Positions 6,333 through 54,249 of a DNA stretch of 64,000 nt are shown in pieces. This DNA comes from Caenibius tardaugens NBRC 16725 (lineage in GTDB: Bacteria > Pseudomonadota > Alphaproteobacteria > Sphingomonadales > Sphingomonadaceae), in the NCBI RefSeq assembly GCF_003860345.1, contig NZ_CP034179.1, positions 2,960,001-3,024,000 on the forward strand, read 5' to 3'. A program made the translations under genes and the position numbers. Below the pieces are notes generated by a model, which saw only the letters and a program-made list of their open reading frames with translations, was not told the origin of the DNA and made no database searches. Positions within the stretch are counted from its first letter, which is position 1, and each line of letters opens with the position of its first letter.

Positions 6333-6409
6333 CGGGCGGGCGCCTTTCGCTCGCAGACGGGGAACGCGCCCTATTGTCCCTGGTGCGCAGGTCTGTAGAA
6401 GACTGGGCC

Positions 6410-7054
6410 ATGGCTACAACGAACGTCGCATTGCAACCAAAAAGGGGGCGCCCCAGCCTCGCGCGGGCCAGCGCTATCGATCGGGTCATTCTCGAACGTG
6501 CACGGGACATGTTCTTTGCCGATGGCTTCGATGCCGTGGCGATGGAACAGGTGGCTGCGGCCGTCGGAATTTCCAAGGGTACGCTCTATGCGCGCCATGC
6601 GTCCAAGGAGGCCCTGTTTACTGCGGTCACCCTGGATATGATCGCGCAGCATTCCACCGAAGCAGCCCGGTTCGATCACCTGCTCACCGATGACATCGAA
6701 CAGCGGCTGCGCCATCACGCCCGCATGATGGTCAATTCGCTGGTGCAACCCGATGTCCGATCCTTCCAGCGGGCGCTATCCACGGTTCAGCATCGCTTCC
6801 CCGATCTGGCGGCATCGATTTCCGAAGTTGGTTATCGCTACATGGTGCGCATCATGCGCGACGATATCATCGCTGCCGCCGCGCGCGACGATATCCCCGT
6901 GCGCGATGCCGAAGGAGTGGCGCTGATGATCGTCTCGGCGATTGGCGGCTATCAGCTTTACGAAACATCCACGGGCAAACTGACCCACGAAGAACTGCAG
7001 GCCCACGCCGAACGAACAATCGACATCGCGATGGCGGCCCGATCAAGCTGGTAA
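6410..7054 (+). CDS. TetR-family transcriptional regulator
   Basis: 214 aa from ATG 6410. A longer frame back to TTG 6374 is possible but is not supported by a ribosome site. The N-terminal helix-turn-helix reads MEQVAAAVGISKGTLYARHA, and the family core KEALFTAV follows. The C-terminal ligand domain is generic. It lies 77 bases after the dehydrogenase pair on the same strand and may repress this acyl-CoA module. The ligand is unknown. Confidence 0.9.
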   Translation: MATTNVALQPKRGRPSLARASAIDRVILERARDMFFADGFDAVAMEQVAAAVGISKGTLYARHASKEALFTAVTLDMIAQHSTEAARFDHLLTDDIEQRLRHHARMMVNSLVQPDVRSFQRALSTVQHRFPDLAASISEVGYRYMVRIMRDDIIAAAARDDIPVRDAEGVALMIVSAIGGYQLYETSTGKLTHEELQAHAERTIDIAMAARSSW

Positions 7055-13241: not shown

Positions 13242-15854
13242 ATGACGGTACGCGAAGTAGTGGAGAGGCGCTCCGTTCGCACGCTGATTCTGACAGGGGC
13301 CGGTGCGACTGCGTTGCTGATGCCCGGGTTTGCGCAGGCGCAGCAGGCGGCTGAAACGGATCTTGCCGAGGCGGAAGGTAACGAGATTATCGTAACCGCG
13401 ACGAAGCGCGAAAAAACACTACAGGATGTGCCGGTTGCGGTGAGTGTGACGACCGCCGAAACGATCGAACGCGCGCATATTCGCGATGTGAGCGATCTGG
13501 TCAGTGTCGTGCCCTCTTTGCGCGTGGTGCAACTGCAAGGTTCGCAGCAAACCAACTTTTTCATTCGCGGGTTCGGTAACGGCTCCAACAACGTGGGTGT
13601 CGAGCCGTCGGTCGGGGTGTTCGTTGACGGCGTTTTTCGTTCGCGTACCGCGTCGCAGATCGGCGATTTCCCTGATATTCAACGTGTCGAGGTGCTGCGC
13701 GGCCCGCAATCGACGCTTTTCGGCAAGAATGCCTCGGCTGGCGTTATCTCGATTGTGACCCGTGAGCCGCAATTCACGTTCGGAGGGGCGGCGGAAGCGT
13801 CCTACGGAAACTTCGATGCCAAAGTGCTCAAAGGGTATGTCACGGGGCCGCTGGCTGAAAGCCTGGCCTTCAGCCTCGCCGCCGGGGTGAACAAGCGTGA
13901 CGGTTTCGCCAAGGATCTCGGCTCTGATACGCGCACCAACGAACGCAATCGCTGGTTCGTGCGGGGCCAGATGCTGTTCCAGCCCGATGATCAGCTGAAA
14001 ATCCGCGTGATCGGCGATTATGACAAGATCGACGAAAACTGCTGCGGCGTTGTCAATCTGCTCAGTTCGGATGCGACGCGAGCGTTGCAGCATCCGCTGA
14101 TCGGCGGGAAAGTGAGCGATCCGGCGCATCCTTTCGCCGACAAGGTCTATGGCAATCTGCCGTCGACCAACAAGATCGAGAACTACGGATTCTCTGCCCA
14201 GGTCGATTACGATACGGGTCCGTTCAAGCTGACCTCGATCACCGCATTCCGCCGGACAAACGCGATCAACGATCAGGATTCGGATTTTACGTCCGCCCGC
14301 CTGCTCGCCACCAATCTCGAAGACAAACATCTGCGCAGCTTCAGTCAGGAATTTCGCGTTGCGGGTGACCTGACCGACAGTATCAGCGCCCTGTTCGGGG
14401 TCTTCTACCTCAACGAAAAATTCCGCCAGCATGGCGAATTGTACCTCGACGATCAGTTCCGCACTTATGCGGACCTGCTGATCCGGGGTAATTCGGGCGG
14501 GGCGCTCAATGTCGGGGCGCTGGAAGGCGCGTTCGGCGCGCTCGAAGGGGCGCCGAACAAGTATCTGGGCACGTTCTTCACCGATACGACCGGCCAGAAC
14601 ATCGATTTGTCGCTGAAGAGCCAGTCGCTGTCGATTTTCGGGCAGTTCGATGTGGAACTGACCGACCGGCTGACACTGACTGTCGGGGGCAACTACACCA
14701 GGGACAAGAAGAAATTCGCCACCGATGTCACGTCACATGACACGTTCTCGGCAATCAATTTCGATGCCCCGCAATACGCACCCCTGCGGTACCAACTGTT
14801 GTATCAGGGCGCGCTGGGCAACGGGTTGAGCGAGGAAACGGCCGCAGCCTTCGCTGCGGCGCGGATGAACAATCCGCTTGCCAATCCGTTGGGGCCATTG
14901 CGCACATTCCAGCTGTTCCCGCCTTTCGTGAACGTTCCCAACGCGGTGGAAGACGGGAAAACCAACGACGACAATTTCAGTTATACGCTGCGGCTTGCCT
15001 ATGATGCGACGGATCACGTCAATCTCTATGCAAGCTATGCCACCGGTTTCAAGGCCAGTTCGATCAATCTTTCCCGCGACAGTCGTCCGCCGGCATCGCT
15101 GGCCGGCGCATTGGCCAGCGCCGGGGAACTGGTGTCGAATCTGCATTATGGCACGCGTCTGGCCGATCCGGAAAAGTCCAAGGTCTTCGAACTGGGGGCC
15201 AAGGGCAGTTGGCGAAACTATTCCGCAAACCTTGCGGTGTTCTATCAGGAGATCAAGGGCTTCCAGTCCAATATCTTCCTGGGCACCGGGTTTGCGCTGT
15301 CGAATGCGGGCAAGCAGTCGACATATGGTGTGGAATTCGAGGGGACGGCACGGCCGATCCCGCCGCTGACTCTGGGCGTGTCCATCACCTGGCTCGATCC
15401 GAAGTACAACAGCTTCATCGCATCTGCGGTTGGGGACCAGTCAGGGCGTCGTCCGCCGGAAATCCCCGAATGGTCGACCACGTTCAGCGCACAGTGGGAT
15501 CAGGACCTGGGCAGCGGGAATCATCTGATCCTGCGCGGTTCCTATCACTATGAATCCACGGCGTGGGCCGTGGAAGGCCTGCCCGGTTTCATCAAGCGCG
15601 ATGCCGCTGGCAATGTGGTCAGTTATGCCCCGGCAATCGAAGCGGCGAGCAAGTTCAAACGGCAGGTCGATGAAGTGGATGCGTCGCTCACCTTCGCCAT
15701 GGAAAACGGGCTCGAATTGTCGGTCTGGGGCCGCAATCTGCTGAACGATCGGTATTTCAACCGCGTGTTCGATTCCGTGGCGCAGCCTCTTGCTGTGTCG
15801 GGCTATCTTAACCAGCCGCGCACCTACGGGGTCGGCGCGCGCTTCAAATGGTAA
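13242..15854 (+). CDS. TonB-dependent outer-membrane receptor
   Basis: 870 aa. An N-terminal signal peptide (about residues 1-33, ending FAQA) is followed by the TonB box region NEIIVTATKREKTLQDVPVA. The plug domain contains VEVLRGPQSTLFGKNASAG, and a 22-strand barrel ends in an aromatic residue (RFKW). It is of the large sphingomonad receptor class that imports nutrients across the outer membrane using ExbBD-TonB energy. No substrate gene is adjacent, so the ligand is unknown. A Rho-independent terminator follows at 15876-15904, showing the gene is transcribed alone. Confidence 0.94.
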   Translation: MTVREVVERRSVRTLILTGAGATALLMPGFAQAQQAAETDLAEAEGNEIIVTATKREKTLQDVPVAVSVTTAETIERAHIRDVSDLVSVVPSLRVVQLQGSQQTNFFIRGFGNGSNNVGVEPSVGVFVDGVFRSRTASQIGDFPDIQRVEVLRGPQSTLFGKNASAGVISIVTREPQFTFGGAAEASYGNFDAKVLKGYVTGPLAESLAFSLAAGVNKRDGFAKDLGSDTRTNERNRWFVRGQMLFQPDDQLKIRVIGDYDKIDENCCGVVNLLSSDATRALQHPLIGGKVSDPAHPFADKVYGNLPSTNKIENYGFSAQVDYDTGPFKLTSITAFRRTNAINDQDSDFTSARLLATNLEDKHLRSFSQEFRVAGDLTDSISALFGVFYLNEKFRQHGELYLDDQFRTYADLLIRGNSGGALNVGALEGAFGALEGAPNKYLGTFFTDTTGQNIDLSLKSQSLSIFGQFDVELTDRLTLTVGGNYTRDKKKFATDVTSHDTFSAINFDAPQYAPLRYQLLYQGALGNGLSEETAAAFAAARMNNPLANPLGPLRTFQLFPPFVNVPNAVEDGKTNDDNFSYTLRLAYDATDHVNLYASYATGFKASSINLSRDSRPPASLAGALASAGELVSNLHYGTRLADPEKSKVFELGAKGSWRNYSANLAVFYQEIKGFQSNIFLGTGFALSNAGKQSTYGVEFEGTARPIPPLTLGVSITWLDPKYNSFIASAVGDQSGRRPPEIPEWSTTFSAQWDQDLGSGNHLILRGSYHYESTAWAVEGLPGFIKRDAAGNVVSYAPAIEAASKFKRQVDEVDASLTFAMENGLELSVWGRNLLNDRYFNRVFDSVAQPLAVSGYLNQPRTYGVGARFKW

Positions 15855-37971: not shown

Positions 37972-38643
37972 TCAGCCTGATGCTTTGAGCACCACCATGC
38001 GGGCATAGTCGCGATAGAGCTGGCGCATCTGCAGATGCAGGCCCTGTTCGCTTGCGATATCCGCACAGACCGTAAACAGATCTTCACGCGGAGTGACATG
38101 GAACCGCGCGAGCCAGCGTTGCAGCAGGAACCGGAAGGCGCGGGGCAGGTGATCCTGCTGCCCGAAATCCACGATATGCAACGACCCTGTGGGCGAGAGG
38201 GCCTGAGCGGCCCTGCGGATAGTCCCGTGCCAATCGGGAATCATCGACAGGGTATAAGAACAGAATATCCGGTCAAACCGTTCCCGCCCGAACAGGCTCG
38301 CTCCATTGAATGCGGTGGCATCTGCGCGGGCGAGGGCGATGCGCCCGGCCAGCGGCGTACCGGCCAGCTTGCTGCGGGCGGTTTTCAGCATTTCTTCCGA
38401 AATATCGAGGCCATAGAGGCGCGCTTGGGGATAATGCCGCCCGGCCAGCACCAGATTGCGCGCGGTGCCGCAGCCGATTTCCAGAACCGATCCGCCGGAA
38501 GGCACGTCCAGTTCCCTGATCAGCCGGTCCCGCCCAAGCAGGTAATATTTGCGCGTCAGATCGTAGATATGCCGCTGAAACGCATAGGTATCATCCATGC
38601 GCGCAGCCTGTTCGCCCAATGCGCGATCAACCGCGCCGGACAT
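37972..38643 (-). CDS. btaB: Betaine lipid N-methyltransferase (class I SAM methyltransferase)
   Basis: 223 aa from ATG 38643, an alternative being 38661. The SAM motif I GGSVLEIGCGTARNL, the motif AARLYGLDISEEML and FDRIFCSYTLSMIPDW are visible. It overlaps the end of btaA, the standard btaA-btaB order of Rhodobacter and Sinorhizobium. BtaB trimethylates diacylglyceryl-homoserine to DGTS, a phosphorus-free membrane lipid. The assignment rests on the partner and position as much as on the sequence. Confidence 0.88.
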   Translation of the reverse strand: MSGAVDRALGEQAARMDDTYAFQRHIYDLTRKYYLLGRDRLIRELDVPSGGSVLEIGCGTARNLVLAGRHYPQARLYGLDISEEMLKTARSKLAGTPLAGRIALARADATAFNGASLFGRERFDRIFCSYTLSMIPDWHGTIRRAAQALSPTGSLHIVDFGQQDHLPRAFRFLLQRWLARFHVTPREDLFTVCADIASEQGLHLQMRQLYRDYARMVVLKASG

Positions 38644-39865
38644 AGAGATGTACCCCGCCATAGATGGACGACCGGTCGCGCGCGGTCAGCTCATGCGATT
38701 CATCCTCACGATAGTCCCACAGCGCAAGGAGGCTCGGTGCGAGCCGCCCCGGCAGGAGCGAGGGTTCATCCGCCGTGCGGAACAACACTCGTGCTTCCGG
38801 GCGAGCCGTGCGGCAGATCTGGCTCCACAGGGCGTTGAGCTGTTCGTCCGTCATCCAGTCCTGTGCGTCGAGCAGAACGAACTTGTCGACGCTCTGCGCC
38901 TCCTGTGCGGCAAGCCAGTCGGTCATGTTCGCCTGATACGTGCTCAGGCGCGGCAGGCGTGCGCGCAGGACAGCGAAATGCCGTTCCTGCAAATAGGGCG
39001 GCAGGCTGGCATCGGGTGCTTTGCTGTATCCGCGCGAAAATGCCTGCCAGGCGAAATAGTTCTCGTTAAAATCAAAGTCGCAGGACAGCTTTGCCAATCG
39101 CTGCCGGAGCACCTGCGCCATGCTGTTGCCGCCTGCCAGCTTGTCGTACTGGGCTGGCGGGATGCCCAGGCCGAACAGCGAAGCCGGCTGGCTGGTCATC
39201 CAGCGGATCAGTGGCTTGTCGAAAATAGGTGCAAATCTGTGTTCGAAATGCGCGCGCTGTTCGGCGCGGTTGCGTGCCGCCAGAATATCGCGCGGGTTTT
39301 CGCCATGCAGGCGCGCCATGACGTGGGCAAGGCCGATAAAGGTGCCCAGCAGGCCATGACGATAGGCCCCTTTGGCAAAAATGTGGATGCGTTTGCGCCC
39401 CAGCCCATCACGCGATTCCCAATAGCGTCGGGTGTCCGCATCCAGATGCGGTGCGATGTGGGCGAAATAGGCCTCCCTGTTCGCTGGCTGATCCGCATCG
39501 GCAAAGAACCGCCGGAAATGGGCGTAATCGGGCAGGTGCGTCATCGCGGCATGTTTGAGGCGCCCCAGCGCCACATGCGTGTGATTGAGGTCAAGCGCGG
39601 TTATGCGCGCGGCATCGGCGGTGAGGTAGCTCAACGCGTTGCAACCGCCGCTGGCAATCGTGACGATGTGATCGGTCGGGCGGATGTCCAGCCCGGCCAT
39701 ATCGGCTTCGGGATCTTCCCAGATTTGGGGGTAAACCAACCCACGAAATGCAAAGGCAAACGCGCGCTCCAGCAAGGCCGCGCCCCCGAACCCTTTTGTG
39801 CTGACTGCGGCCTGTGCGACAAGCTGGCCGCGCTTGCCGTTGCCCAGGGCGATATCCTGATCCAT
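38627..39865 (-). CDS. btaA: S-adenosylmethionine:diacylglycerol 3-amino-3-carboxypropyltransferase
   Basis: 412 aa with the BtaA/DUF3419 core: RGLVYPQIWEDPEADMAGLDI, HIVTIASGGCNALSYL (SAM site), and near the end VHLYVRRG. BtaA transfers the aminocarboxypropyl group of SAM to diacylglycerol to form diacylglyceryl-homoserine, the first step of DGTS synthesis. It is followed by btaB with a 17-base overlap. Upstream on the same strand are three 11-bp repeats resembling a Pho box. It probably acts at the inner membrane when phosphate is scarce. Confidence 0.95.
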   Translation of the reverse strand: MDQDIALGNGKRGQLVAQAAVSTKGFGGAALLERAFAFAFRGLVYPQIWEDPEADMAGLDIRPTDHIVTIASGGCNALSYLTADAARITALDLNHTHVALGRLKHAAMTHLPDYAHFRRFFADADQPANREAYFAHIAPHLDADTRRYWESRDGLGRKRIHIFAKGAYRHGLLGTFIGLAHVMARLHGENPRDILAARNRAEQRAHFEHRFAPIFDKPLIRWMTSQPASLFGLGIPPAQYDKLAGGNSMAQVLRQRLAKLSCDFDFNENYFAWQAFSRGYSKAPDASLPPYLQERHFAVLRARLPRLSTYQANMTDWLAAQEAQSVDKFVLLDAQDWMTDEQLNALWSQICRTARPEARVLFRTADEPSLLPGRLAPSLLALWDYREDESHELTARDRSSIYGGVHLYVRRG

Positions 39866-43081: not shown

Positions 43082-43086
<5 letters not shown>

Positions 43087-43771
43087 GCGCCGCTGTTGCG
43101 CCGGTTGACCTTATCGGATGCGTTAACAGTTGTTCCACGCCGCTGATCAGTTGCCGAAATCCGAACGAAAGAACATCGTCTCGGTGGATATCGGCAAAGT
43201 CGAGCCATAGCCCGGTAGCCAGCCGCTGACTTTCGAGGTCGAGGTTCTCAAGATGCGCAAGTGATGCCGTTCGGCGATTTTCGGGTGAACGAAGCTGTGC
43301 GGAGATAAAGCCCATTGCGGCGGTTGTGAACCAGCTCATGGCGAAGGCCAGTTCCGGTCCGCGAAGTCCCTCCTTTTTAAGGGCCTGCGCTACAGGAAAC
43401 CACCGTTGTAACCAGCCGGGCGAGACATGACCGCTCCATTGCATAAGTTTGATTGCTTCGGGGTGACGGTCCAGGTGGCGAACCACTGTCCATAGCCAGG
43501 AATAAAGATAATCTTGCCATCGTTCTTGCGGATCAATGGGGGCCATCCGGTTGTAAACATCGTCTGCCAACGCGAGCAAGAGCGCATCTTTGCTGGGGAA
43601 GTACGTGTATAGCGACATGACCCCTACCGAGAGGGCGCGTGCAAGTCGCGGCATCGAAAAATCCCGGACATGTTCTTTCGCGAGCATTCTGGAGGCTGCT
43701 TCGAGAACCAGATCGGCAGAAAGTCTGGGTTTTCGTCCACGCTGTTTCGGTGGGTCTACTTTGTTTGTCAT
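43082..43771 (-). CDS. TetR-family repressor of the adjacent catabolic cluster
   Basis: 229 aa. N-terminal helix-turn-helix MPRLARALSVGVMSLYTYFPSKDALLLAL; the C-terminal half is a TetR_C-like ligand domain with many aromatic residues (WQDYLYSWLWTVVRH). The start is ATG 43771. A palindrome lies 8-25 bases upstream of its start and a matching, stronger one lies in the divergent TonB receptor promoter. This suggests an autoregulated local repressor induced by the pathway substrate or an intermediate. The ligand is not predictable. Confidence 0.9.
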
Positions 43772-43778
43772 GGCTATA

Positions 43779-43800
43779 TTCCGTATGCCTTACGGTAAAT
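43779..43800. promoter_or_regulatory. TetR operator candidate, autoregulatory site
   Basis: CCGTA (43781-43785) and TACGG (43791-43795) separated by TGCCT, then GTAAAT. It shares TTACGGTAAAT and the following CC with the site at 44059. Confidence 0.7.
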
Positions 43801-44058
43801 ACCCAAAGAGTCAATTCGAAACGGATTGCGGTCCGTTGGCGGAATGAGACAGGCTTCCCTGCTGCTGAGGATGTGCCTTGAATCAGGTGAGTAAGTGCCC
43901 ACAAATTGATTGGGGAGGGTGTGATTCTGGCGGCTTCATGTGCATCGAATTCCCTTTGTTTATCTGTATAATGATTTGAAAATAAACAATATAATAAGAA
44001 AATGGGGCCCGCGTTAAGGGGGTCCCCAAACCGCATTGACTCGGGTAAAATAAACAGT

Positions 44059-44075
44059 ACCGTAAGCTTTACGGT
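44059..44075. promoter_or_regulatory. TetR operator candidate in the receptor promoter
   Basis: Perfect inverted repeat ACCGTAA-GCT-TTACGGT, 7-base arms and a 3-base centre. It begins 17 bases after the TTGACT hexamer, where the -10 element should lie, so bound repressor would block initiation. Confidence 0.8.
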
Positions 44076-44203
44076 AAATGCCATTATGTAATGCTGCTCA
44101 TCTGGATGGGTGGGGCAGGGGTGTCGCTGCACGCATGTGTGGTGCGCTGTCTTGCGCGACAATTCTGGCGTCCGGAAAAAAAGTGTGTGGGGAGAGCAGT
44201 GCA

Positions 44204-46855
44204 GTGAGAAGAACGGTATTTCTGCGTGGATCGAGCGCGCTGATCATGGCTGTTGTCAGCGGTTGGGGGCAAGTCGCCCTGGCTCAGGAAGAAGCGCGCG
44301 CAAACACCAGCGGATCGGGTATCGCGGACATTGTGGTAACGGCGAACCGCCGTGCGGAAAACGCGCAAACGGTTCCCGTCGCAGTTACGGCAGTCACCGG
44401 CGAACAGATGCGCGAACTGGGTATCAGCAGCGGGGCCGATCTGAATGGCAAGGTTCCCTCGGTATTTGTCACCTCGGGCGGTAACCAGCGCAACGTGGAA
44501 GTGGTTGTCATACGCGGTCAGGGGCAGACATACCTGTCCCCCGTCGGGGTGGTGAACTACTTCAACGATGTGCCCCTGATTCAGGGGGGTATCACAGCCA
44601 TTCAGGGCGCGCCGGGCATGTTCTTCGATCTCGAATCGATGCAGGTCCTGCGTGGTCCGCAGGGGACGCTGTTCGGGCGTAATACCACTGGCGGGGCGGT
44701 TTTGCTTGGACCCAAAAGGCCAACGAACGAATTCGATGGCTATGTTCAGGCGCAAATCGGTAACTACAAGGATCGCGAATTCGAAGGCGCGGTCAATGTG
44801 CCGCTGATCGACGACAAACTGATGGTGCGCGCAGCCTTCAAGAAGGTTGATCGGGATGGATATACCAAGGATGTGGGGCCACAGGCCTACGGCTTGTCGA
44901 AGGTTTGTGCGCCGCCTGCGCTCGGTACGCTCGGTAGCTGCACGGTCAGCAATGGTTTTGCCGGGAAGGATTACGACGACCGGCATTACTGGCATGCGCG
45001 CATAGGCATTCTGGCGCGTCCTGTAGAGGGTGTCGAAAACTATCTGGTCGCCTATTATGCGAAATCGCATGATAATGGTTCGGGTTTTATTCCCGATGAT
45101 TTCCGTTCGCATGCGACAGGCAATCCCTACGACCTCAGCGTGGCCACGATTTCTGCGATGGCGGCATACAATGTGAATAATCCGGGGGCTCCGATCGGCT
45201 TTACGGGCGCCGGGATTTATGCGGCCAATCAATTGGCATCGCAGATTCTTGCTCGTCAGGCGACGCTTGGCCCGCGCAAGACCGCGGTTAACAGCGATAC
45301 ATTCGAGAAAACGAAATCCTGGGGTATCGTGAATACACTGAGCATCGATGTTTCCGATGCCATGCAGATCAAGAGTATCACGGGCTATCAGCGCCTGAAG
45401 CAGAATTATAACTGGGATCTCGATGGATCGATCCTGCCGATCCTCGCGCAAACCCCGCCGTTCGCTACACCTGCGGCCAGTGCGGAAGCGCCTGACTGGC
45501 TGGTCGGCAATCCGGGCGATAGCGTGAACGTGGCCAATAGCAGCCTGTTTACGCAAGAACTGCAATTGCAGGGCTCCGCGCTTGATCACAAACTGCAATT
45601 CGTTGTCGGCGGCTTTTACAGCAAACAAAAGCCTGAAGGGCTTCAGGCAACAGGGTCGTTCAATGCGGCCAGTGCGAACCCCGGAACGTTCTATGCGATT
45701 ACCAGCAAAGCGCAGGCCGTATTTGGTCAGGCGACGCTTGACATGGGGGCGTTCACCCCCGGTCTTGATGGCCTGAAGCTTACGGCGGGGATCCGGCGGA
45801 CCTGGGACAAGATCGATGGTTCGCGCTATGCATCGAATTTCGTGCTGGACCCCGTGGTCCTGCACAGGAAGCTTAAATCGGCGGCAACAACCTGGACCGT
45901 CGGGGTTGATTATCAGGTCAACAACGGACTGATGCTCTATGGCAAGGTCGCGCGCGGTTATAAGGCTGGCGCCTTCAATTATGCAGGCGCGGATTTCAAC
46001 CAGATTACTGCCAAACCTGAGTACGTCACCAGTTATGAAATCGGGTTCAAATCCGACTTCGAACTGGGCACTGTTCCGGTGCGTTTCAATGCCAACGCGT
46101 TTCATGTCGATTACGACGGCATTCAACGCGCGGCCGCGATGAACCATCCCAATGGTTGCGACACGACGATCGGCAGCGCACCGGGCAGTGAGCCTGCGCG
46201 TTGCGATCTGATTGGCAACGTCACAGGCCTCGATCAGGGGGCGGTTACGTTCAACGCCGGCAAGGCGCGGATGCGCGGAATTGAGCTGGAATTGGTTGTG
46301 CAGCCTGTCGAGGGCCTCCGCATTTCGGGCAGCTATTCGTACATCGATGCGAAGTACAAGACGTTCATTCAGAACGTATCCGGGAGTGGTCTGGAAACGC
46401 GGATCGATACCTGTCAGGGTGAAAAGCAGCTGATTTATGGTGTCCCTCAGGCGCTTGATTTCAGCTGTATTCCCTTTCAGGTAACCCCGAAAAATCTGAT
46501 AAATATCAACGCCCGTTATGAGGTTCCGCTGGGGGACAGTGTCGGCACACTGGCATTTGGTGCGAACTACAGTTGGGTTGACCGGATTTACAACGGTTCC
46601 ACGACCACCCCGCGAGACGACATTCACGCCTGGATGGAGTCTTACGGCAAGCTCGATCTGTCGCTGGAATGGCAGGATGTGATGGGATCGAATTTCGATC
46701 TGCGCCTTTTCGGCACCAATGTCACGGACAAGACCTACCGTACCAATGCCTACACCGGCCTGCGTGGTGCCTCCGGCTTCACCCAGTCGCTTTATGGCGA
46801 ACCGCGCATGTACGGCGCTTCGCTTCGCTATCGCTTCGGCGCGAGCGGAAACTGA
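44204..46855 (+). CDS. TonB-dependent receptor of the Baeyer-Villiger gene cluster
   Basis: 883 aa from GTG 44204, which has GGGGAGAG 9 bases upstream and gives an arginine-positive signal peptide (about residues 1-28, LAQ). The TonB box region is IADIVVTANRRAENAQTVPVAVTA in parts, the plug contains MQVLRGPQGTLFGRNTTGGAV, and the barrel ends with RYRFGASGN. An earlier ATG region (44078) is not signal-peptide-like. First gene of the long collinear unit to 54249; it should import the pathway substrate across the outer membrane. Confidence 0.93.
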   Translation: MRRTVFLRGSSALIMAVVSGWGQVALAQEEARANTSGSGIADIVVTANRRAENAQTVPVAVTAVTGEQMRELGISSGADLNGKVPSVFVTSGGNQRNVEVVVIRGQGQTYLSPVGVVNYFNDVPLIQGGITAIQGAPGMFFDLESMQVLRGPQGTLFGRNTTGGAVLLGPKRPTNEFDGYVQAQIGNYKDREFEGAVNVPLIDDKLMVRAAFKKVDRDGYTKDVGPQAYGLSKVCAPPALGTLGSCTVSNGFAGKDYDDRHYWHARIGILARPVEGVENYLVAYYAKSHDNGSGFIPDDFRSHATGNPYDLSVATISAMAAYNVNNPGAPIGFTGAGIYAANQLASQILARQATLGPRKTAVNSDTFEKTKSWGIVNTLSIDVSDAMQIKSITGYQRLKQNYNWDLDGSILPILAQTPPFATPAASAEAPDWLVGNPGDSVNVANSSLFTQELQLQGSALDHKLQFVVGGFYSKQKPEGLQATGSFNAASANPGTFYAITSKAQAVFGQATLDMGAFTPGLDGLKLTAGIRRTWDKIDGSRYASNFVLDPVVLHRKLKSAATTWTVGVDYQVNNGLMLYGKVARGYKAGAFNYAGADFNQITAKPEYVTSYEIGFKSDFELGTVPVRFNANAFHVDYDGIQRAAAMNHPNGCDTTIGSAPGSEPARCDLIGNVTGLDQGAVTFNAGKARMRGIELELVVQPVEGLRISGSYSYIDAKYKTFIQNVSGSGLETRIDTCQGEKQLIYGVPQALDFSCIPFQVTPKNLININARYEVPLGDSVGTLAFGANYSWVDRIYNGSTTTPRDDIHAWMESYGKLDLSLEWQDVMGSNFDLRLFGTNVTDKTYRTNAYTGLRGASGFTQSLYGEPRMYGASLRYRFGASGN

Positions 46856-46868
46856 TGAAAACGGGCCT

Positions 46869-47369
46869 GTGCTGAAGGCCGTGGTGCTCCCGGGTGAGGA
46901 CGATTTCACCATCTCACCGGGGGCACCCATTATCTTGCGTGAAGGGATACGAGAGTTGAACGGCGTTCAAAATACCTCTTTTGGTTTTACCAAGCTGATA
47001 GTCGACGATGAAGAGGCAATGGCACAGTACTATTGCGGCGTTTATGGTCTCAACGCGTTTCAGCGTGTCCAGAATGATGACAGCGGCGCGGGCGGCCCTA
47101 TTCGCGAAATTATACTTTCGCACGATGATGTTCTGGCCGGGCCAACTCTTGTCATGTTCAAGTTCACGGATCGGCCCGCACCGGTGGAACGGGAAGCGAT
47201 TCTGGGGTTCATCACAGATGATCTCGACAGTCTTGCCCGGCGGGTGATCGATCATGGTGGCAAACATGTTTCCCCGATCAAATCCATGCCTGAACACGGG
47301 GTGCGCGTCCTGTTCACAACCGATCCCGAAGGGCGGATGAGCGAGAATGTCGAACTGATGCCACGCTGA
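46869..47369 (+). CDS. VOC-superfamily (glyoxalase/dioxygenase-like) protein
   Basis: Up to 166 aa from GTG 46869; a start at TTG 46956 (138 aa, GAGAG just upstream) would cover only the recognisable domain and may be right. The core runs from FGFTKLIVDDEEAMAQYYCGVYGL to the ending MSENVELMPR, in which the Glu is the usual C-terminal metal ligand of vicinal-oxygen-chelate enzymes; other ligands are less clear. These act as isomerases, lyases or dioxygenases on small acids. It follows the receptor by 13 bases and is part of the same unit. Confidence 0.75.
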   Translation: MLKAVVLPGEDDFTISPGAPIILREGIRELNGVQNTSFGFTKLIVDDEEAMAQYYCGVYGLNAFQRVQNDDSGAGGPIREIILSHDDVLAGPTLVMFKFTDRPAPVEREAILGFITDDLDSLARRVIDHGGKHVSPIKSMPEHGVRVLFTTDPEGRMSENVELMPR

Positions 47370-47414
47370 TGCGTGACTTTTCCCATAATCAATAAATGGA
47401 AGCGGAGACCTGAA

Positions 47415-48485
47415 ATGACTGACGCAAATTCATTTATCATCCGGCCCGTGGCAGAGCCGCAGATCAAGGATGACGTTTATACGGCTGATCAGTATCGGCG
47501 TATGGTCAGCACCATTCGGGAGAATGGGCCCTGGAAAATGGTTCTCGCCCAGCATTTCAAATCTGCCGATGAAGTGGTGGCGACCATGTCGGGCGAGATG
47601 CCAGAGGGTGTGGAACCCTCGTTTGATATGTTCCTCACGCCCAATTTCCGCGGATATTTCGGCCAGAACGGGGTGTGCCTCTACCCGGAACTGGACGATG
47701 TCTTCTTCAACAGTCAGCACATGGCATGGGTGCGTTCCTACTGGAATGCCGACTACGCCGTTCCGGAATCGATGAATTTCATCATCCAGGGATCGTCGCG
47801 CAACACCGATCCCGCGCATCTCGATGGCACCTCTTTTCGCGGCATTGATCGGGGGAACTCTCCGGTGTGGCTGCAGAATATGATGGGTAAGTCGGGCCTG
47901 TTCCAGAACTGGATGGTGAAAAAAGCGCAGGTCATCGCGTGGTTCTACCAAGGGACGATCGGCGGCGGCTTTACCTATTGGCCCGATGGCCCCGAAGCGC
48001 AGCCCAAGCGTTTGACCATGCCATCGTGGAATCGCGGTGTCGTGACCCAGAACGAAATGATGTACCACCGTGGAGAAGCGTGTGGACCGATGGACAAGCG
48101 CATGCCTGAAGGGCTGGCTTTTGAATCCCTGTGGGCGGCAGACCCGGCTGTTGCCGATGGCTGGCAGATCACCACCGACGGGCGGGTGATCGAGCGTGTG
48201 TCCAGTGAAGAGACACGGTTGATGCTGCACTGGACGGCCAGCATCTATCAGGACCTTGATGAAATGAAGCTGATCTTCGATCACAAGGATGATCTGACGC
48301 ACGATCAGGTATTCGCTATGTTCATGGCCGATCTGCGCAAGCGCGGTGTGGCCTTTGCCGTCCCGACCGATCCTCTGTCCGATCGCGATTTCGTAAGGCT
48401 TCTGACCAAAACTTACGATCCGGGACGCCCAGCGATTTATCCTGCGGAGGCTCCGGGGCCGCACGAGGAGCAGATTGCAGCCTGA
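47415..48485 (+). CDS. Unrecognised 356-aa protein in the monooxygenase cluster
   Basis: 356 aa from ATG 47415. No signal peptide or membrane segment, so cytosolic. The sequence is rich in Trp, Tyr and Met. It has an HLD triad at residues 135-137 and a conserved-looking MYHRGEACGP at about 216-225, a spacing faintly like the HxD...H iron site of 2-oxoglutarate or PhyH-type oxygenases, but the evidence is weak. It lies between the VOC protein and the Baeyer-Villiger enzyme, which argues for an enzymatic step on the same substrate. I cannot name its family. Confidence 0.75.
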   Translation: MTDANSFIIRPVAEPQIKDDVYTADQYRRMVSTIRENGPWKMVLAQHFKSADEVVATMSGEMPEGVEPSFDMFLTPNFRGYFGQNGVCLYPELDDVFFNSQHMAWVRSYWNADYAVPESMNFIIQGSSRNTDPAHLDGTSFRGIDRGNSPVWLQNMMGKSGLFQNWMVKKAQVIAWFYQGTIGGGFTYWPDGPEAQPKRLTMPSWNRGVVTQNEMMYHRGEACGPMDKRMPEGLAFESLWAADPAVADGWQITTDGRVIERVSSEETRLMLHWTASIYQDLDEMKLIFDHKDDLTHDQVFAMFMADLRKRGVAFAVPTDPLSDRDFVRLLTKTYDPGRPAIYPAEAPGPHEEQIAA

Positions 48486-48688
48486 ATTTGGACGCCACCG
48501 GATCACAGGTTCTGGTTCCTTACCAGACGTGGTGCGGTGGCGACGGAATGGGTCCGGTTGGATTGGGGCCGGGCCGGCCTCGCACTGACAAGATCATACC
48601 TTCGTTTCGACGTGCTGGCTGCTGTCGGCGCGCAGGGCTTTTAACGTCCAGAATCGCTTGGATCGCACATATTTGTAAGGATCACCTG

Positions 48689-50626
48689 ATGTTGCAAACG
48701 ATGACGCAAACGAACCGGTCTGAGCCATTACTGCCGGACAGCGAGGTTTTGCGTCGGGCTTTGGCATCCGTCGATCCTTCGGATTTGCTGATGACTTACG
48801 CGTATCTCACGCACGACAGGGACCTGCTTGAACGGATGGCGCCGCATATTCGTCCACTGTTCGGTTTGGAGCCTACGGCGATACCTGACGAACTGGTTGA
48901 AGAATTGCGCAGCAAGGCATTCATCGCGCTGACCACTGCGGGTGCGACGCGCGGGGAAATGCCTTCGCGGGAATTGATGCAACGGATCATGAGCGTTGGC
49001 ATGGGTGAACAGGTTGACGACGAATTTGTCGATCTCCTGTTCGAACAATGTGGCTTCGTGGTGCCGCAAGCGCGCAAAAGCAGGGTCGATCGGACGATGC
49101 CCCCGCAGGGTTTCAAAGTATTGCTGGTCGGGGCAGGGCTGACCGGATTGGCCGCAGGTATCAAGCTGAAGGAGGCAGGTTACGATTATATCTGCGTTGA
49201 AAAGAATGCCGATGTTGCCGGAACGTGGCTCGAAAATGTCTATCCCGGTGTGGCGGTCGATACGCCGAGCCATTTCTATTCCTATTCCTTCCATCAGAAG
49301 GCGGACTGGAACCACTATTTTCCCCGTGGCGAGCAGGTGCGGCAATATCTGAACGGTGTTGCCGATCATTATGATCTGCGCCGGAATATCCGGTTTGAGA
49401 GCGTTGTGACCACGATGGCGTTCGACGAGGCTAGCGGGCTCTGGAACGTTACGATCAGGGATAAGAACGGCCATGCCGAGGTTGTGCAGGCCAATGCAGT
49501 CATGGTTGCGCACGGTCGTCTCAACCGATGGTCGTTGCCGGATATTCCCGGGATCGAACGCTTCACAGGCCCTGTGATGCATTCTGCGGGTTGGGATCGC
49601 TCGGTGGACCTTGAGGGCAAGCGGATTGCCGTGATCGGGACTGGCGCCAGCGGGGCACAGATCGTACCGAACGTCGCGCCCGACGCGGGCAAAGTCACGG
49701 TCTTCATGCGTTCACGCTACTGGGTGATGCCCAACCCCAAGATTAGCGGCACCGTGCCGGAGGAAACGAAGTGGGCGCTGGCGAATATTCCGGGGTTTCA
49801 ACAGTGGTTCCGCTTCGGCATCTACTGGAACGCATCGGATGGCTATTATCAGCATGTGCTACGCGATCCCGCGTGGCCGGACGATGCGCCATCGGTATCC
49901 GAAGTTAACGAACAACTGCGCCAGTATGGCCTGTCCTATATGCAGCAGAAGCTCGGCCATCGCCCCGAGCTTCTCGAAAAACTGACACCTGATTTTCCGA
50001 TCTTTTCCAAACGCATGGTGCTCGATGCAGGGTGGTACGACGCCTTGCTGAGGGACAATGTGGAGGTCGAGAACGATCCCATTGCAGAGATACTGCCCAA
50101 TGGCATCCGCACCAGAAGCGGCGCGGTGCATGAGGTGGATGTGATCGCATGCGCAACCGGTTTCAATATCGCCAGGATGCTCGGCGATGTACAGGTCACC
50201 GGGCGTGACGGGCGATCTCTCAACGAGGAGTGGGGAGACGATGATCCGCGCGCCTATCTGGGGACAACGGTGCCGGGGTACCCCAACCTGTTCCTGGTTG
50301 GCGGTCCCAACACCGGCCCCAATCATGGGGCCGGGGCAAACCTCGTGGCCGAAGCCGTGATCAATTATATCGTGGAATGTCTCGACCTGATGGTTGCCCG
50401 CGACGCTGCGACTATGGAACCGACAGAACAGGCCTATCGCGACTGGAACGACAAGATCGACGATCAGCTTACGCGGATGATCTGGTCACACCCCAAGGCG
50501 AACAGTTATTATAACAACAGCGCCGGACGCGTGTTTTTATCCAATCCGTTCAGGCTGGTCGATCTGTGGAACTGGACCAGAAAGCCCGTTGAAGAGCATT
50601 TCCTGCTGGGACGAGCACAGAACTGA
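48689..50626 (+). CDS. Flavin-containing (Baeyer-Villiger-type) monooxygenase
   Basis: 645 aa from ATG 48689 (AAGGA 8 bases upstream). An N-terminal extension of about 140 residues precedes FAD-binding VLLVGAGLTGLAAG. The type I Baeyer-Villiger fingerprint FTGPVMHSAGWD (FxGxxxHxxxW[P/D]) is at about 291-302, and the NADPH Rossmann IAVIGTGASGAQ near 316. Such enzymes insert oxygen next to a ketone carbonyl giving an ester or lactone. The extension is that of the long-form BVMOs for bulky cyclic or aryl ketones. Downstream serine esterase and SMP-30 lactonase fit the next step. Confidence 0.92.
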   Translation: MLQTMTQTNRSEPLLPDSEVLRRALASVDPSDLLMTYAYLTHDRDLLERMAPHIRPLFGLEPTAIPDELVEELRSKAFIALTTAGATRGEMPSRELMQRIMSVGMGEQVDDEFVDLLFEQCGFVVPQARKSRVDRTMPPQGFKVLLVGAGLTGLAAGIKLKEAGYDYICVEKNADVAGTWLENVYPGVAVDTPSHFYSYSFHQKADWNHYFPRGEQVRQYLNGVADHYDLRRNIRFESVVTTMAFDEASGLWNVTIRDKNGHAEVVQANAVMVAHGRLNRWSLPDIPGIERFTGPVMHSAGWDRSVDLEGKRIAVIGTGASGAQIVPNVAPDAGKVTVFMRSRYWVMPNPKISGTVPEETKWALANIPGFQQWFRFGIYWNASDGYYQHVLRDPAWPDDAPSVSEVNEQLRQYGLSYMQQKLGHRPELLEKLTPDFPIFSKRMVLDAGWYDALLRDNVEVENDPIAEILPNGIRTRSGAVHEVDVIACATGFNIARMLGDVQVTGRDGRSLNEEWGDDDPRAYLGTTVPGYPNLFLVGGPNTGPNHGAGANLVAEAVINYIVECLDLMVARDAATMEPTEQAYRDWNDKIDDQLTRMIWSHPKANSYYNNSAGRVFLSNPFRLVDLWNWTRKPVEEHFLLGRAQN

Positions 50627-51987
50627 TGACGCAGGCTGCGCAAGCTGGGCAAGAATTGGAAACGGACGCGTCGGCATCTATGTGTTCGGCATCTGCGCGT
50701 ATTTCCGGCCGAAACGGGTATTCTGTCTATGTCTTGATGTTGCTGCTGATGATCAACACGTTCAGCTATGCGGATCGGCACATATTTTCGATTCTGATAC
50801 CGGATATCAAGGCTGATTTCGGGGTGAGCGATTCAGTGCTCGGTCTTATCAGTGGTCCGGGATTCATCCTCAGCTACGTATTGGTTACCCTGCCTCTGGC
50901 GCGATGGGGAGACCAGTGGTCCCGACGCGGCGTGGTGGCGATATCTGCTGCCCTGTGGAGCATAGCAAGCGCGGCATGCGGCGTTGCAACCACTATCGTG
51001 CAAATGGCGAGTGCCCGGGTGCTCGTCGGAGTGGGAGAGGCCGGGGCGATGCATTCCTCTCAGGCGATGGTGTCGGGGATGTTTTCCGAACGGACACGTG
51101 CTCGCGCATTGGGCGTCCTGACGTCGTCGACATATATCGGAATGCTGGTCGGGCTTACGGGTGGTGCGGCAATCGCTGGCGTCTGGGGATGGAGAGCCGC
51201 ATTTGTCGCCCTTTCGTTGCCCGGTGCCCTCCTCGCCATCGTATTGTGGCTGTCCGGTCCCGGACAGGAAAAACATGCGACGCCGTCAAGCACGGGAAAG
51301 GGCCAGATTTCCTGGCTGGCGGCGATACGGTTGTTCTACGCGACACCGTCCCTGCGCTACCTTGCCCTTGGCGTCGGCGTGTTCAACATTTTCGGTTATG
51401 CGGGGGCGACCTGGCTTCCCGCTTTTCTGGTCCGTTCGCATGGCTTGAGTGTTGTTGAAACCGGTCTGTGGATGGGCGTCGGTTCGGCTGTCGGGGGAGT
51501 CGTCGGCAGCCTGATAAGCGGGATTCTGGTCGATATTTCGCGCCGTCATGACGAGATCTGGCAATTGCGCATTCCGGCAATGGGTTTGCTCCTGACGTTT
51601 CCGCTGACGGTCACGACGTTTCTGTTAACGGGTGGCCTGACGCTCGAACTTTTCGGGTTCGCGATTCCAGTCGTTGTCTTTCTGATGTTGTGCACCAGCT
51701 TCCTGAGTGCGCTTTGGGCAGCGCCGGCATACGGGGCGATCGCACGGCTTATTCCTCCACAGCAGAGAGCGCAGGCAGCCGGGATCATGATCGTCATTAT
51801 CAACGTGGTGGGAAGTATGCTGGGGCCGCCCGTTGCCGGAATAGTCAGCGATATACTCGGGCGCGAATTCCATGGGGATTCCATGCGGTACAGCTTGCTG
51901 TCGATGAGCGTTCTTATTCTCGTCGGAGGGCTGCTCACGTGGAAGGCGAGCGCACACTACAGGCGCGATCTTGCGGATGCGGCCTGA
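50626..51987 (+). CDS. MFS transporter
   Basis: 453 aa with about 12 transmembrane helices. The A-loop motif ADFGVSDSVLGLISGPGF, LARWGDQWSRRGVVAISAALWS (the G-x-x-x-D-R/K-like loop) and the second-half RLIPPQQRAQAAGIMIVIINVVGSMLGPP are clear. The start ATG overlaps the monooxygenase stop as TGATG, showing coupled expression. It is the likely inner-membrane import or export step for the substrate or product of the cluster. The ligand is not predictable. Confidence 0.94.
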   Translation: MTQAAQAGQELETDASASMCSASARISGRNGYSVYVLMLLLMINTFSYADRHIFSILIPDIKADFGVSDSVLGLISGPGFILSYVLVTLPLARWGDQWSRRGVVAISAALWSIASAACGVATTIVQMASARVLVGVGEAGAMHSSQAMVSGMFSERTRARALGVLTSSTYIGMLVGLTGGAAIAGVWGWRAAFVALSLPGALLAIVLWLSGPGQEKHATPSSTGKGQISWLAAIRLFYATPSLRYLALGVGVFNIFGYAGATWLPAFLVRSHGLSVVETGLWMGVGSAVGGVVGSLISGILVDISRRHDEIWQLRIPAMGLLLTFPLTVTTFLLTGGLTLELFGFAIPVVVFLMLCTSFLSALWAAPAYGAIARLIPPQQRAQAAGIMIVIINVVGSMLGPPVAGIVSDILGREFHGDSMRYSLLSMSVLILVGGLLTWKASAHYRRDLADAA

Positions 51988-52027
51988 TTGTCCGCTTGGA
52001 GATGACCACCAGATGCGGGAGGATACC

Positions 52028-53290
52028 ATGAAGCACACAGGCGATGCTGACGTTGGGCACAGCGCCATGCTGTCGAATTTTGAGGCGTTGCAGAAAACTG
52101 CGCGCGGGTTTGTGGATCAGGGTGTCGTGCCTGGTGTGGCGCTGGCATGGCAAAAGGACGATGGTCCGATCCAGTATCATGCATACGGTCATCTGGGTTT
52201 CGGATCGCCTGTGGCGGTAAATGAACGCTCTTTGTTTCGAATTTTCTCGATGACCAAGCCCATCACCGGTATCGCCGCGATGATGCTGGTTGAAGCAGGT
52301 TCTCTCAGCCTCGATCAACCGTTGTCTGACATACTTCCCGCATTTCGCGATATGGAAGTTGTCGTCGACGGCGATGGCATGCGAACCCGGCGAGCGTCCG
52401 GCCCGATCACCATTCGTCACCTTCTCACACATACTGCGGGCTTCGGATCGGCAGGAATGACGCTGGGCGGTCTATATGTGAAGAATGGCATTGCGCCTGG
52501 TGTGCGGGAACGCGTGCCCGGACCGGGGGAACTGGCGACGCCGAAAACGCTGGCGGAATTGGGCGCGCGTGTAGCCGGCCTGCCGCTGGCTGCAGATCCG
52601 GGTACGCGGTTTGATTACAGCATATCTCTGGACATCCTTGGTCTCGTTATTGAGACAGTTTCGGGAATGCCATTCGACCGGTTCCTTCAACAGCGTCTGT
52701 TCGAGCCGTTGGGCATGATTGATACAGGCTTTGCTGTGGATGCCTCCCGGATTGATCGTTTCGCGGACCTGCCGGAGCAAAAAGGCCTGCTCTGGACCCT
52801 TGCGGACGATCCGCGTCACAGCCGCTATTCCATGCCATACTTTCCATCCGGTGGCGGGGGGCTTGTTTCGACAGCGCAGGATTACGCGCGTTTCGCGGCA
52901 ATGATTCTGAATGACGGCGTATGGGCTGGTCAGCCGCTATTGAAACCTGAGATCATCCATATCGCACGTTCCAATCTTTTACCCGAAGGCATCGATCGCG
53001 TTGATCTCCCCCTTGGGCAAACGCTCGCGGGGATTGGTTTCGGGGCAGGCATGTCCGTGCAACTATCGCCGGGCCGTAGAACAGAGGGGATGTTTGCCTG
53101 GCCCGGTGAAGTGCCGGTTGGTGTTGTCGGCTGGCCGGGTGCAGCCGGGACGGCATGTTGGATCGATCCTGATCGCCGTTTCTTCCTCGTATTGATGACG
53201 CAATATTGGCCATCATGGCTCAATGCATCGATGCGACCAGATATAATTGCTGCAGCGTATAGCGATATGGCGAAAGAAAAGGTCCGTTAA
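52028..53290 (+). CDS. Serine hydrolase of the class C beta-lactamase/esterase family
   Basis: 420 aa from ATG 52028, with GGAGGA upstream. The catalytic SMTK motif is Ser74 to Lys77, preceded by the usual F-R-I-F. A Tyr segment FDYSISLDILGL matches the YxN position. No signal peptide, so it acts in the cytoplasm and is an esterase or lactonase rather than a cell-wall enzyme. In this operon it is the natural candidate to cleave the ester made by the Baeyer-Villiger enzyme. Confidence 0.9.
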   Translation: MKHTGDADVGHSAMLSNFEALQKTARGFVDQGVVPGVALAWQKDDGPIQYHAYGHLGFGSPVAVNERSLFRIFSMTKPITGIAAMMLVEAGSLSLDQPLSDILPAFRDMEVVVDGDGMRTRRASGPITIRHLLTHTAGFGSAGMTLGGLYVKNGIAPGVRERVPGPGELATPKTLAELGARVAGLPLAADPGTRFDYSISLDILGLVIETVSGMPFDRFLQQRLFEPLGMIDTGFAVDASRIDRFADLPEQKGLLWTLADDPRHSRYSMPYFPSGGGGLVSTAQDYARFAAMILNDGVWAGQPLLKPEIIHIARSNLLPEGIDRVDLPLGQTLAGIGFGAGMSVQLSPGRRTEGMFAWPGEVPVGVVGWPGAAGTACWIDPDRRFFLVLMTQYWPSWLNASMRPDIIAAAYSDMAKEKVR

Positions 53291-53301
53291 GGGTTTGTGC
53301 A

Positions 53302-54249
53302 ATGGCAAGGCCAGCCAGAAGCAACGGCCTCCAGGAAAAGGGCAGAGGAATGATTGTACGGGACGAGATCCGCACGCTGGTGGAAGGGCTGACTTTGCCG
53401 GAATGCCCGCGGTGGCATAAGGGCAACCTTTATTTTTCAGATATCACTGCAGGCCGCATTTACAGGCTTGGCGGCGAAAACAGGGCTGAATTGCTATATC
53501 AATCCGATGGCGATTTCGTCGGTGGTCTGGGGTTTCTGGATGACGATACTCTTCTGGCGGTTTTGTCTAAGCAACGGCGTATCGTCCGGATTGCTGACGG
53601 GAAGGCGCAACCTTATGCGGCCCTGAGCGACCTCTGCCCGTTCGTGCTGAACGATATGGTCGTCAGCCGGAACCATGCCTACATCAGTCAGCCGGGGTTT
53701 GATATTTGGGCCGACCATCCCGACGGCATGCCTCCAGCGACAGAACTGCTGCACGTCGATCCGACAAGATCGAGCACTCTTGCGGCCACGGAAATGATGT
53801 CACCGAACGGTATGGCAATCAGTTCTGACGGCCGTGTGTTGTATGTGGCGGAAAGTACCGCTTTACGCATCACGTGCTACGATATCGATCCTGCGACCGG
53901 AGCATTGTCGAACCGGCGACTGTTCGCACAATTGCCCGATGGCGGCTTCCCCGATGGCATTTGTCTGGATGATCACGGTGGCGTGTGGGCAGCTGTTCCC
54001 GTCGCCGTTTCCGGAACATCCTTTGGTGGCGGGCCAGGGGTCATCCGCATGATTGAAGGTGGCGAAGTCACGCACCTTGTGCGGGTGGGATCGGGTCGCC
54101 GGGCGCTTGCCTGTGCATTTGGCGGCAATCAGCGCGACATTCTTTATGTTTGTACTGTCCCGGATTTTGAGGTGGCTTCAGCAGAATCCGATAGTCAGGG
54201 CAAACTGGAATGCATCGAAGTAGAGTTCAAAGGGCAAGGGGTTCCTTGA
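53302..54249 (+). CDS. SMP-30/gluconolactonase-family lactone hydrolase
   Basis: 315 aa from ATG 53302 (AAGGG 8 bases upstream); a second start at 53350 is possible. The six-bladed propeller signatures PECPRWHKGNLYFSDITAGRIYRL, MMSPNGMAISSDGRVLYVAES and FPDGICLDDHGGVWAA are present with likely calcium/metal Glu and Asp. The family opens lactones. It is the last gene of the cluster, which is followed by a long gene-free stretch. Confidence 0.93.
   Translation: MARPARSNGLQEKGRGMIVRDEIRTLVEGLTLPECPRWHKGNLYFSDITAGRIYRLGGENRAELLYQSDGDFVGGLGFLDDDTLLAVLSKQRRIVRIADGKAQPYAALSDLCPFVLNDMVVSRNHAYISQPGFDIWADHPDGMPPATELLHVDPTRSSTLAATEMMSPNGMAISSDGRVLYVAESTALRITCYDIDPATGALSNRRLFAQLPDGGFPDGICLDDHGGVWAAVPVAVSGTSFGGGPGVIRMIEGGEVTHLVRVGSGRRALACAFGGNQRDILYVCTVPDFEVASAESDSQGKLECIEVEFKGQGVP

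Follow-up and report, generated by a model that had tools for sequence, protein, structure and literature searches.

A TetR-controlled Baeyer-Villiger gene cluster in Caenibius tardaugens, probably for a steroid-like ketone, with an oxygenase-like protein of unnamed family

Introduction

Caenibius tardaugens NBRC 16725 – a sewage bacterium known to degrade steroids – is a model for the microbial removal of steroid pollutants, and published work deals with estrogens, testosterone, progesterone, and bile salts. According to the available part of the report on progesterone (PMC12239570), the pdc cluster contains the Baeyer-Villiger monooxygenase (BVMO) EGO55_13845, a TetR and a LuxR regulator, and the luciferase-like monooxygenase EGO55_13860, and the BVMO and the luciferase-like enzyme convert progesterone to testosterone acetate. 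The estrogen cluster edc of the same strain is described, in the part of the text seen (PMC7793797), as combining catabolic genes with a TetR regulator and the TonB receptor EdcT. Here, we describe a cluster of eight genes at positions 43082–54249 of a 64,000-nucleotide stretch of the C. tardaugens genome (contig NZ_CP034179.1, positions 2,960,001 to 3,024,000 of the forward strand; hereafter the window), in which a divergent TetR gene faces seven genes running from a TonB-dependent receptor to a lactonase. The two published primer stretches for EGO55_13845 match the genome at 2.944–2.946 Mb, each with a single mismatch close to its 5′ end, which places pdc at genome positions 2944518–2949196, 54 kb to the left of this cluster.

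BVMO-led steroid breakdown is already known in this strain, and the present cluster is a further, apparently undescribed TetR-controlled module. An earlier reading made from the sequence letters alone (the sequence-only reading) had recognized no known operon in it, and literature searches likewise found no account of the cluster. A full-text search of the open literature gave no mention of the tags EGO55_140, 141, and 142 (a range estimated from gene counts), and no tag from EGO55_138 to 142 occurs in the main text of PMC12882949, PMC6895838, PMC8700777, or PMC9027588. Nor did searches, to which supplements and most subscription papers were inaccessible, find anything joining a BVMO with a TonB receptor gene cluster in Novosphingobium, Chol11 with Baeyer-Villiger chemistry, or a 2-oxoglutarate (2OG) dioxygenase with steroid degradation and a Baeyer-Villiger reaction.

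On balance, we propose a TetR-repressed catabolic operon whose substrate is a steroid or steroid-like polycyclic ketone. Of most interest in it is a 356-residue protein of an unnamed, widespread family that looks like a 2OG/Fe(II) oxygenase.

Results

Repressor, operator sites, and gene organization

The gap between tetR and the receptor gene contains a perfect inverted repeat at 44058–44076 and an imperfect copy at 43779–43797. Allowing up to two mismatches, the 4.36-Mb genome has no further site of this palindrome, and the reversed pattern, used as a control, gives one match per strand genome-wide. In Chol11, whose TetR is 56% identical, a 21-kb stretch holds a single site at up to three mismatches (it has two) where chance predicts 0.00, and this site is 13 bp ahead of the GTG with which the longest tetR open reading frame (ORF) begins; at the Sphingobium TomTYG65 locus, where the TetR is ~40% identical, the site was not found. 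The divergent tetR and the palindromes in the gap that it shares with the receptor gene give the cluster the layout of a TetR-autoregulated operon. Because the operator pair is unique in the genome and the same site stands beside the Chol11 orthologue, the predicted repression of the receptor-to-lactonase operon by this TetR appears well supported, in agreement with the sequence-only reading.

All eight expected ORFs are present (Table 1), and profile searches confirm the families of seven of the eight proteins: TetR_N, TonB plug and barrel, VOC, FMO-like, MFS_1, Beta-lactamase, and SGL/SMP-30. The VOC (Glyoxalase) match is weak, at 22.2 bits against a cut-off of 20.6, and the 356-residue protein remains without a sequence family. 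The genes had been called collinear, which holds for the seven on the plus strand and not for the divergent tetR on the minus strand.

Three gene starts were reconsidered. The receptor gene probably starts at GTG 44204 and not at ATG 44078, because the ATG directly abuts the perfect operator and the GTG is preceded by GGGGAGAG and gives a product with a signal-peptide-like N-terminus. For the VOC gene, TTG 46956 is the probable start, since the TomTYG65 homologue also has 137 residues and its alignment begins exactly there, and the lactonase gene probably starts at ATG 53350, where the alignment of a 58% identical homologue begins. With these starts the intergenic gaps from receptor to lactonase are 100, 45, 203, −1 (a stop/start overlap), 40, and 59 bp. 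The description 'tightly spaced' therefore holds, best for the BVMO-MFS pair. The GC content of the cluster is 0.55–0.585, compared with 0.575–0.65 in the 42 kb to the left, and stays low (0.53–0.59) for ~6 kb to the right. Promoter and terminator scans of the cluster gave signals no better than those in shuffled sequence.

Table 1. Genes and putative operator sites of the cluster (window positions)
Feature	Position	Strand	Support
TetR-family repressor, 229 aa	43082..43771	-	PF00440 38.3 bits; Chol11 orthologue 56% identical
Putative operator site 1, TTCCGTATGCCTTACGGTA	43779..43797		7 bp upstream of tetR; 2 mismatches to palindrome
Putative operator site 2, TACCGTAA-GCT-TTACGGTA	44058..44076		perfect 8-bp inverted repeat ahead of receptor gene
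TonB-dependent receptor	44204..46855	+	PF00593 132.5 bits, PF07715 52.1 bits; ORF open from 44078; start probable
VOC-superfamily protein, 137 aa	46956..47369	+	PF00903 22.2 bits; TomTYG65 homologue 60% identical; start probable
356-aa protein, 2OG/Fe(II)-oxygenase-like	47415..48485	+	predicted double-stranded beta-helix fold, invariant HxD..H..R; without Pfam family
N-extended type I BVMO, 645 aa	48689..50626	+	PF00743 85.1 bits
MFS transporter, 453 aa	50626..51987	+	PF07690 157.2 bits; start overlaps BVMO stop
Beta-lactamase-fold serine esterase, 420 aa, SMTK motif	52028..53290	+	PF00144 218.5 bits
SMP-30/gluconolactonase-family lactonase, ~299 aa	53350..54249	+	PF08450 155.9 bits; start probable

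Predicted fold and active site of the 356-residue protein

The 356-residue protein has no sequence match in Pfam, NCBIfam, or the PDB. When 52 family members were compared with Pfam there were just stray single-member matches (six families, with one or two members each and a best E of 0.003), and a profile of the 52 members found nothing in the PDB up to E 10. An AlphaFold2 model built from the 52-row alignment has a mean pLDDT of 92.0 and a pTM of 0.90, and shows a double-stranded beta-helix (DSBH) fold. A Foldseek search of the PDB with this model gave 21 matches at E ≤ 0.001, all of which are, judged by title or known identity, 2OG/Fe(II) oxygenases, with PHD2 the best (E 3.7e-5, TM-score by query 0.33). 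Sugar epimerases enter the Foldseek list from rank 30, and TM-scores by query length are low throughout the best 50 rows (0.20–0.38). The best 50 rows from VIA-align also belong to the 2OG/Fe(II) oxygenase class, again by title or known identity, and are headed by a Pseudomonas prolyl hydroxylase (Z 12.1, root-mean-square deviation 3.1, 168 residues aligned).

Iron ligands in an HxD..H arrangement and an arginine for 2-oxoglutarate form the pattern of 2OG/Fe(II) enzymes. Each of the 52 family sequences compared has His135-x-Asp137, His218, and Arg268, and likewise Asn213 and His272, and the step from His218 to Arg268 is unusually long for this pattern at 50 residues. The protein thus looks like a 2OG/Fe(II) oxygenase, with a fold given by prediction and a putative active site. 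The HxD..H arrangement also prompted a comparison with PhyH (PF05721), and membership was rejected: none of the 52 members has a PhyH match at E ≤ 1, and hhalign against four PhyH-type proteins returned a probability of 0.05 on a scale of 100.

The monooxygenase and the two hydrolases

FxGxxxHxxxW(P/D) is the motif of type I BVMOs. The window BVMO carries FTGPVMHSAGWD, together with GAGLTG and GTGASG as the marks of two Rossmann folds, and its closest PDB matches are cyclohexanone, steroid, and phenylacetone monooxygenases. Motif, PF00743 profile, and structural relatives all agree with the Baeyer-Villiger assignment that the sequence-only reading had made. An N-terminal extension of ~130 residues falls outside the alignment with the best PDB relatives. 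A second N-extended BVMO, 53% identical to that of the window, is encoded at genome positions 2954863–2956740 (minus strand), ~3 kb left of the window start and between it and pdc.

The SxxK motif (SMTK) and the PF00144 profile place the next enzyme among the beta-lactamase-fold (family VIII type) esterases. Its best PDB match is Esterase 7pp3 (E 3e-54), the two top PDB rows are titled esterase and carboxylesterase, and the nearest NCBIfam equivalog is the methyl acetate hydrolase AcmB, for which it falls far under the cut-off (150 of 550 bits). The lactonase has the SMP-30 profile (PF08450) and matches the exported gluconolactonase 3dr2 best in the PDB (E 1.4e-12); its ECPRW, SPNG, and PDG stretches are, as read by eye, candidates for the three metal ligands (Glu, Asn, Asp) of the family. 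By analogy, a reaction order in which a hydrolase acts after the BVMO is plausible.

Distribution and gene company of the 356-residue family

A scan of one genome per species in one public collection found 212 stretches with relatives of the 356-residue protein, of which the best 80 were kept, corresponding to 78 distinct loci. With two more loci added, 80 were surveyed – 35 mycobacterial and 45 other – some genomes contributing several, partly overlapping loci; the 35 mycobacterial loci are probably one inherited locus. The hosts among the best 80 of the 212 include sphingomonads, Haliea, Parahaliea, Azospirillum, Caulobacter, Archangium, and many mycobacteria. Close to C. tardaugens the family is rare, occurring in 3 of 59 relatives, all of its own genus.

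Members of the family often lie near N-extended BVMO genes. Among 15 genomes or records, picked after a first look and not at random, an N-extended BVMO lies within 5 kb of 32 of 64 family copies, where even placement predicts 1.5, and within 300 bp of 10 of the 64. For these counts five fragment rows of the family were dropped, and the BVMO set was confined to 58 rows spanning the extension (query start ≤93, end ≥612), with short BVMOs and fragments dropped. In the 80-locus survey, BVMO homologues occur within 5 kb at 8 of 35 mycobacterial and 21 of 45 other loci, and VOC homologues at 0 of 35 and 15 of 45. Two further family copies are present in C. tardaugens, at genome positions 469801–470826 and 1022442–1025494, the latter ~155 bp after another N-extended BVMO that is 32% identical to that of the window.

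All 35 mycobacterial loci have a gene resembling 3-ketosteroid dehydrogenase (KstD-like) within 10 kb. For TomTYG65 and M. aurum the KstD-like proteins have 3-oxosteroid 1-dehydrogenases as their best matches (E 1e-100 and 1e-104), with fumarate reductases far behind. Homologues of the TetR, receptor, VOC, MFS, esterase, and lactonase genes were found at 0 of the 35. One mycobacterial locus also has genes nearby for short-chain dehydrogenases, a SnoaL-like protein, an aldehyde dehydrogenase, an enoyl-CoA hydratase, and a CoA ligase. In an even sample of the order, 2 of 157 genomes carry the 356-residue family and 11 carry KstD (E ≤ 1e-80), and both family carriers are among the 11; with C. tardaugens counted as one of those two carriers, this co-occurrence lends weak support.

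Conservation of the cluster

The closest relatives of the 356-residue protein are those of TomTYG65 (77% identical), S. quisquiliarum P25, and Chol11 (both 76%). In each of the three loci the gene directly downstream of the 356-residue gene encodes a BVMO, and an MFS gene is nearby; TomTYG65 has both a tetR and a VOC gene as well, and Chol11 a tetR. Conservation of the gene set, which the sequence-only reading had offered as a check, therefore holds for a core of 356-residue protein, BVMO, and MFS carrier and not for the whole. The whole eight-gene set as a conserved operon was rejected, since a lactonase homologue occurs within 10 kb at 0 of 80 loci and an esterase homologue at 2 of 80 (blastp, E ≤ 1e-10, within the flanks available, some of which ended at contig ends).

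The remaining parts are found elsewhere. The best esterase homologues in a plasmid collection (61–65% identical) belong to tomato Sphingobium strains, and two of these regions also contain genes for a CoA ligase, an acyl-CoA dehydrogenase, and short-chain dehydrogenases, with members of the 356-residue family 7–8 kb away. The best plasmid homologue of the lactonase (58%, in TomTYG64) lies beside a glyoxalase gene and has a BVMO, a 7-alpha-hydroxysteroid dehydrogenase (7-alpha-HSD), and KshA encoded within 5 kb. Parts of the cluster travel in steroid-type neighbourhoods, and the exact assembly was met only in C. tardaugens. The ketosteroid dehydrogenase gene of C. tardaugens, at genome positions 220791–222413 (minus strand) and with a product ~70% identical to that of TomTYG65, stands apart from the module, and the 19.5 kb around it contain no other gene of the TomTYG65 cluster.

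Neighbouring genes in the window

Between 1041 and 15854, right of the pdc region, the window encodes a CoA-transferase of family III (1041–2282), a TetR regulator (6374–7054), and a second TonB receptor (13242–15854), possibly a further part of a steroid region. At 37972–39865, on the minus strand, an ORF that appears by eye to encode a methyltransferase adjoins a gene for a DUF3419 protein, and the two may be a pair for betaine-lipid synthesis.

Discussion

The cluster most likely acts on a steroid or steroid-like ketone, in view of the host, the neighbouring clusters, and the KstD-like genes associated with the 356-residue family; the sequence-only reading had proposed a large terpenoid or aromatic ketone, which is to be narrowed accordingly to this class. 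We infer the transcription of the operon, the binding of the repressor, the nature of the inducer and of the substrate, and each catalytic step, as follows. The substrate or a metabolite of it would bind TetR, upon which the repressor would leave both operators and the genes from receptor to lactonase would be transcribed. The TonB receptor and the MFS carrier would import the compound, and the oxygenase-like protein would oxidize it, most likely by hydroxylation. The N-extended BVMO would then insert oxygen beside a carbonyl such as that of a 17-keto or 20-keto group, to give a lactone or ester that the serine esterase or the SMP-30 lactonase would open, and the opened product could join the known steroid pathway of the strain.

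Several observations weigh against this proposal. In the profile search of its eight proteins the cluster has no steroid ring-degradation gene, and KstD-like genes lie within 10 kb of just 5 of the 45 non-mycobacterial loci; compared with 35 of 35, this makes the ketosteroid-dehydrogenase link strong in mycobacteria and weak elsewhere. The one copy of the family inspected in RC1, a tomatine degrader, is flanked by neither a BVMO nor a steroid gene. The window BVMO is 52–53% identical to those of the three closest loci, whereas S. quisquiliarum and Chol11 have BVMOs 85–86% identical to that of TomTYG65, so that the BVMO step may differ here, the partner of the 356-residue protein having apparently diverged or been exchanged. 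Homologues of the esterase and lactonase were not found near the 356-residue gene in the stretches examined of the three closest loci, and the description of the pathway as complete and self-contained is therefore unsupported. Finally, the available part of the progesterone report (PMC12239570) gives 36 genes as differing between progesterone and testosterone, and this cluster is not among the seven most induced.

Some of these points also bear on other substrates. A non-steroid terpenoid or aromatic ketone, with the steroid context being merely that of a versatile host, would account for the missing ring gene and for the scarcity of KstD-like genes outside mycobacteria, and it would suit a genome with 13 places of the FMO family and a BVMO superfamily that acts on many ketones. 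However, relatives of the 356-residue protein and of the lactonase have KstD-like and KshA genes near them, pdc lies 54 kb away, and both family carriers in the sample of the order also carry KstD; we consider such a substrate unlikely. A plant steroid or sapogenin of the tomatidine or diosgenin type, for which the module would be kept to deal with plant material in sewage, seems less likely still. Here the closest relative of the 356-residue protein comes from a Sphingobium of tomatine-treated soil, to go by the part of the source available (PMC10653915), and its stretch also encodes a 3-oxosteroid 1-dehydrogenase; moreover, of the 22 plasmid records that contain a family member, 15 come from Sphingobium, mostly Tom strains, whose plasmids also hold the best esterase homologues. 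Yet Chol11, a degrader of bile salts, and S. quisquiliarum have copies almost as close (76%), the words 'Baeyer' and 'monooxygenase' are both absent from the main text of PMC10653915, and the inspected RC1 copy lies outside any steroid cluster. Tomatine degradation as the specific role was rejected on the RC1 copy and on this main text, and persists as part of the plant-steroid alternative.

The role of the 356-residue protein bears separately on the scheme. It could be a beta-helix protein that is no oxygenase or has no catalytic role, such as a cupin-like epimerase, an isomerase, or a binding protein, as the missing sequence match to any oxygenase family, the failed profile comparison with the four PhyH-type proteins, the epimerases further down the Foldseek list, and the low TM-scores would allow. 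This is improbable given that the HxD..H..R set is invariant throughout the family and that 2OG/Fe(II) oxygenases head both structural lists. Returning to the oxygenase-like assignment, we tentatively raise a further proposal, taken as a whole and more doubtful than probable: that the protein founds a new family of 2OG/Fe(II) steroid oxygenases, spanning sphingomonads, Haliea, Myxococcota, and mycobacteria, which act as partners of N-extended BVMOs, one enzyme hydroxylating and the other cleaving next to the keto group, and that the pair opens a steroid side chain or ring left unexplained by known pathways. For Chol11, the degradation of the side chain was described as mostly unknown in PMC8540908 and PMC8399759. 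The accessible parts of later reports (PMC12175502, PMC12882949) name a CoA ligase (SclA), an acyl-CoA dehydrogenase (Scd4), and the monooxygenase Nov2c228 for the Chol11 side chain; a CoA-free route for bile-salt side chains was dropped on account of the first two, and a gap that the 356-residue family could fill may therefore be elsewhere.

With 212 stretches in the collection and no Pfam entry, the family carries predictions that can be stated simply: use of iron, of 2-oxoglutarate, and of steroids. The TetR and its operator pair could serve to find the inducer directly, as EdcR did for a biosensor in the part of the report available (PMC8700777).

Comparison with described systems

PhyH and other 2OG/Fe(II) oxygenases have in common with the 356-residue protein its predicted DSBH fold and putative HxD..H..R pattern, but PhyH has no sequence-level match to it, and the 50 residues from the presumed distal His to the Arg set the window protein apart. 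The steroid monooxygenase STMO (PDB 4ap3) is likewise a type I BVMO and is related to that of the window (E 6e-66); however, at 549 residues it matches in two pieces from residue 133 on, and so is without the N-terminal extension. The pair AcmA-AcmB follows the same logic of a BVMO and a beta-lactamase-family esterase, although its substrate is a small ketone and the window esterase, by its score, is not AcmB.

Within C. tardaugens, identity with pdc or edc was ruled out by position and gene content. The edc cluster resembles this one in its TetR regulator and TonB receptor, but its aromatic-ring route uses a P450 together with a meta-cleavage dioxygenase, and 'Baeyer' appears nowhere in the text of PMC7793797 so far as it was available. 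In pdc, as in the window cluster, a TetR-family regulator adjoins a type I BVMO. The profile search found neither a luciferase-like monooxygenase nor a LuxR family among the eight proteins of this cluster, in contrast to pdc, a four-gene cluster in which, going by the available part of its description, a short-form BVMO (a 494-residue ORF) accompanies both; the window cluster has instead the receptor, VOC protein, 356-residue protein, MFS carrier, esterase, and lactonase that pdc is without.

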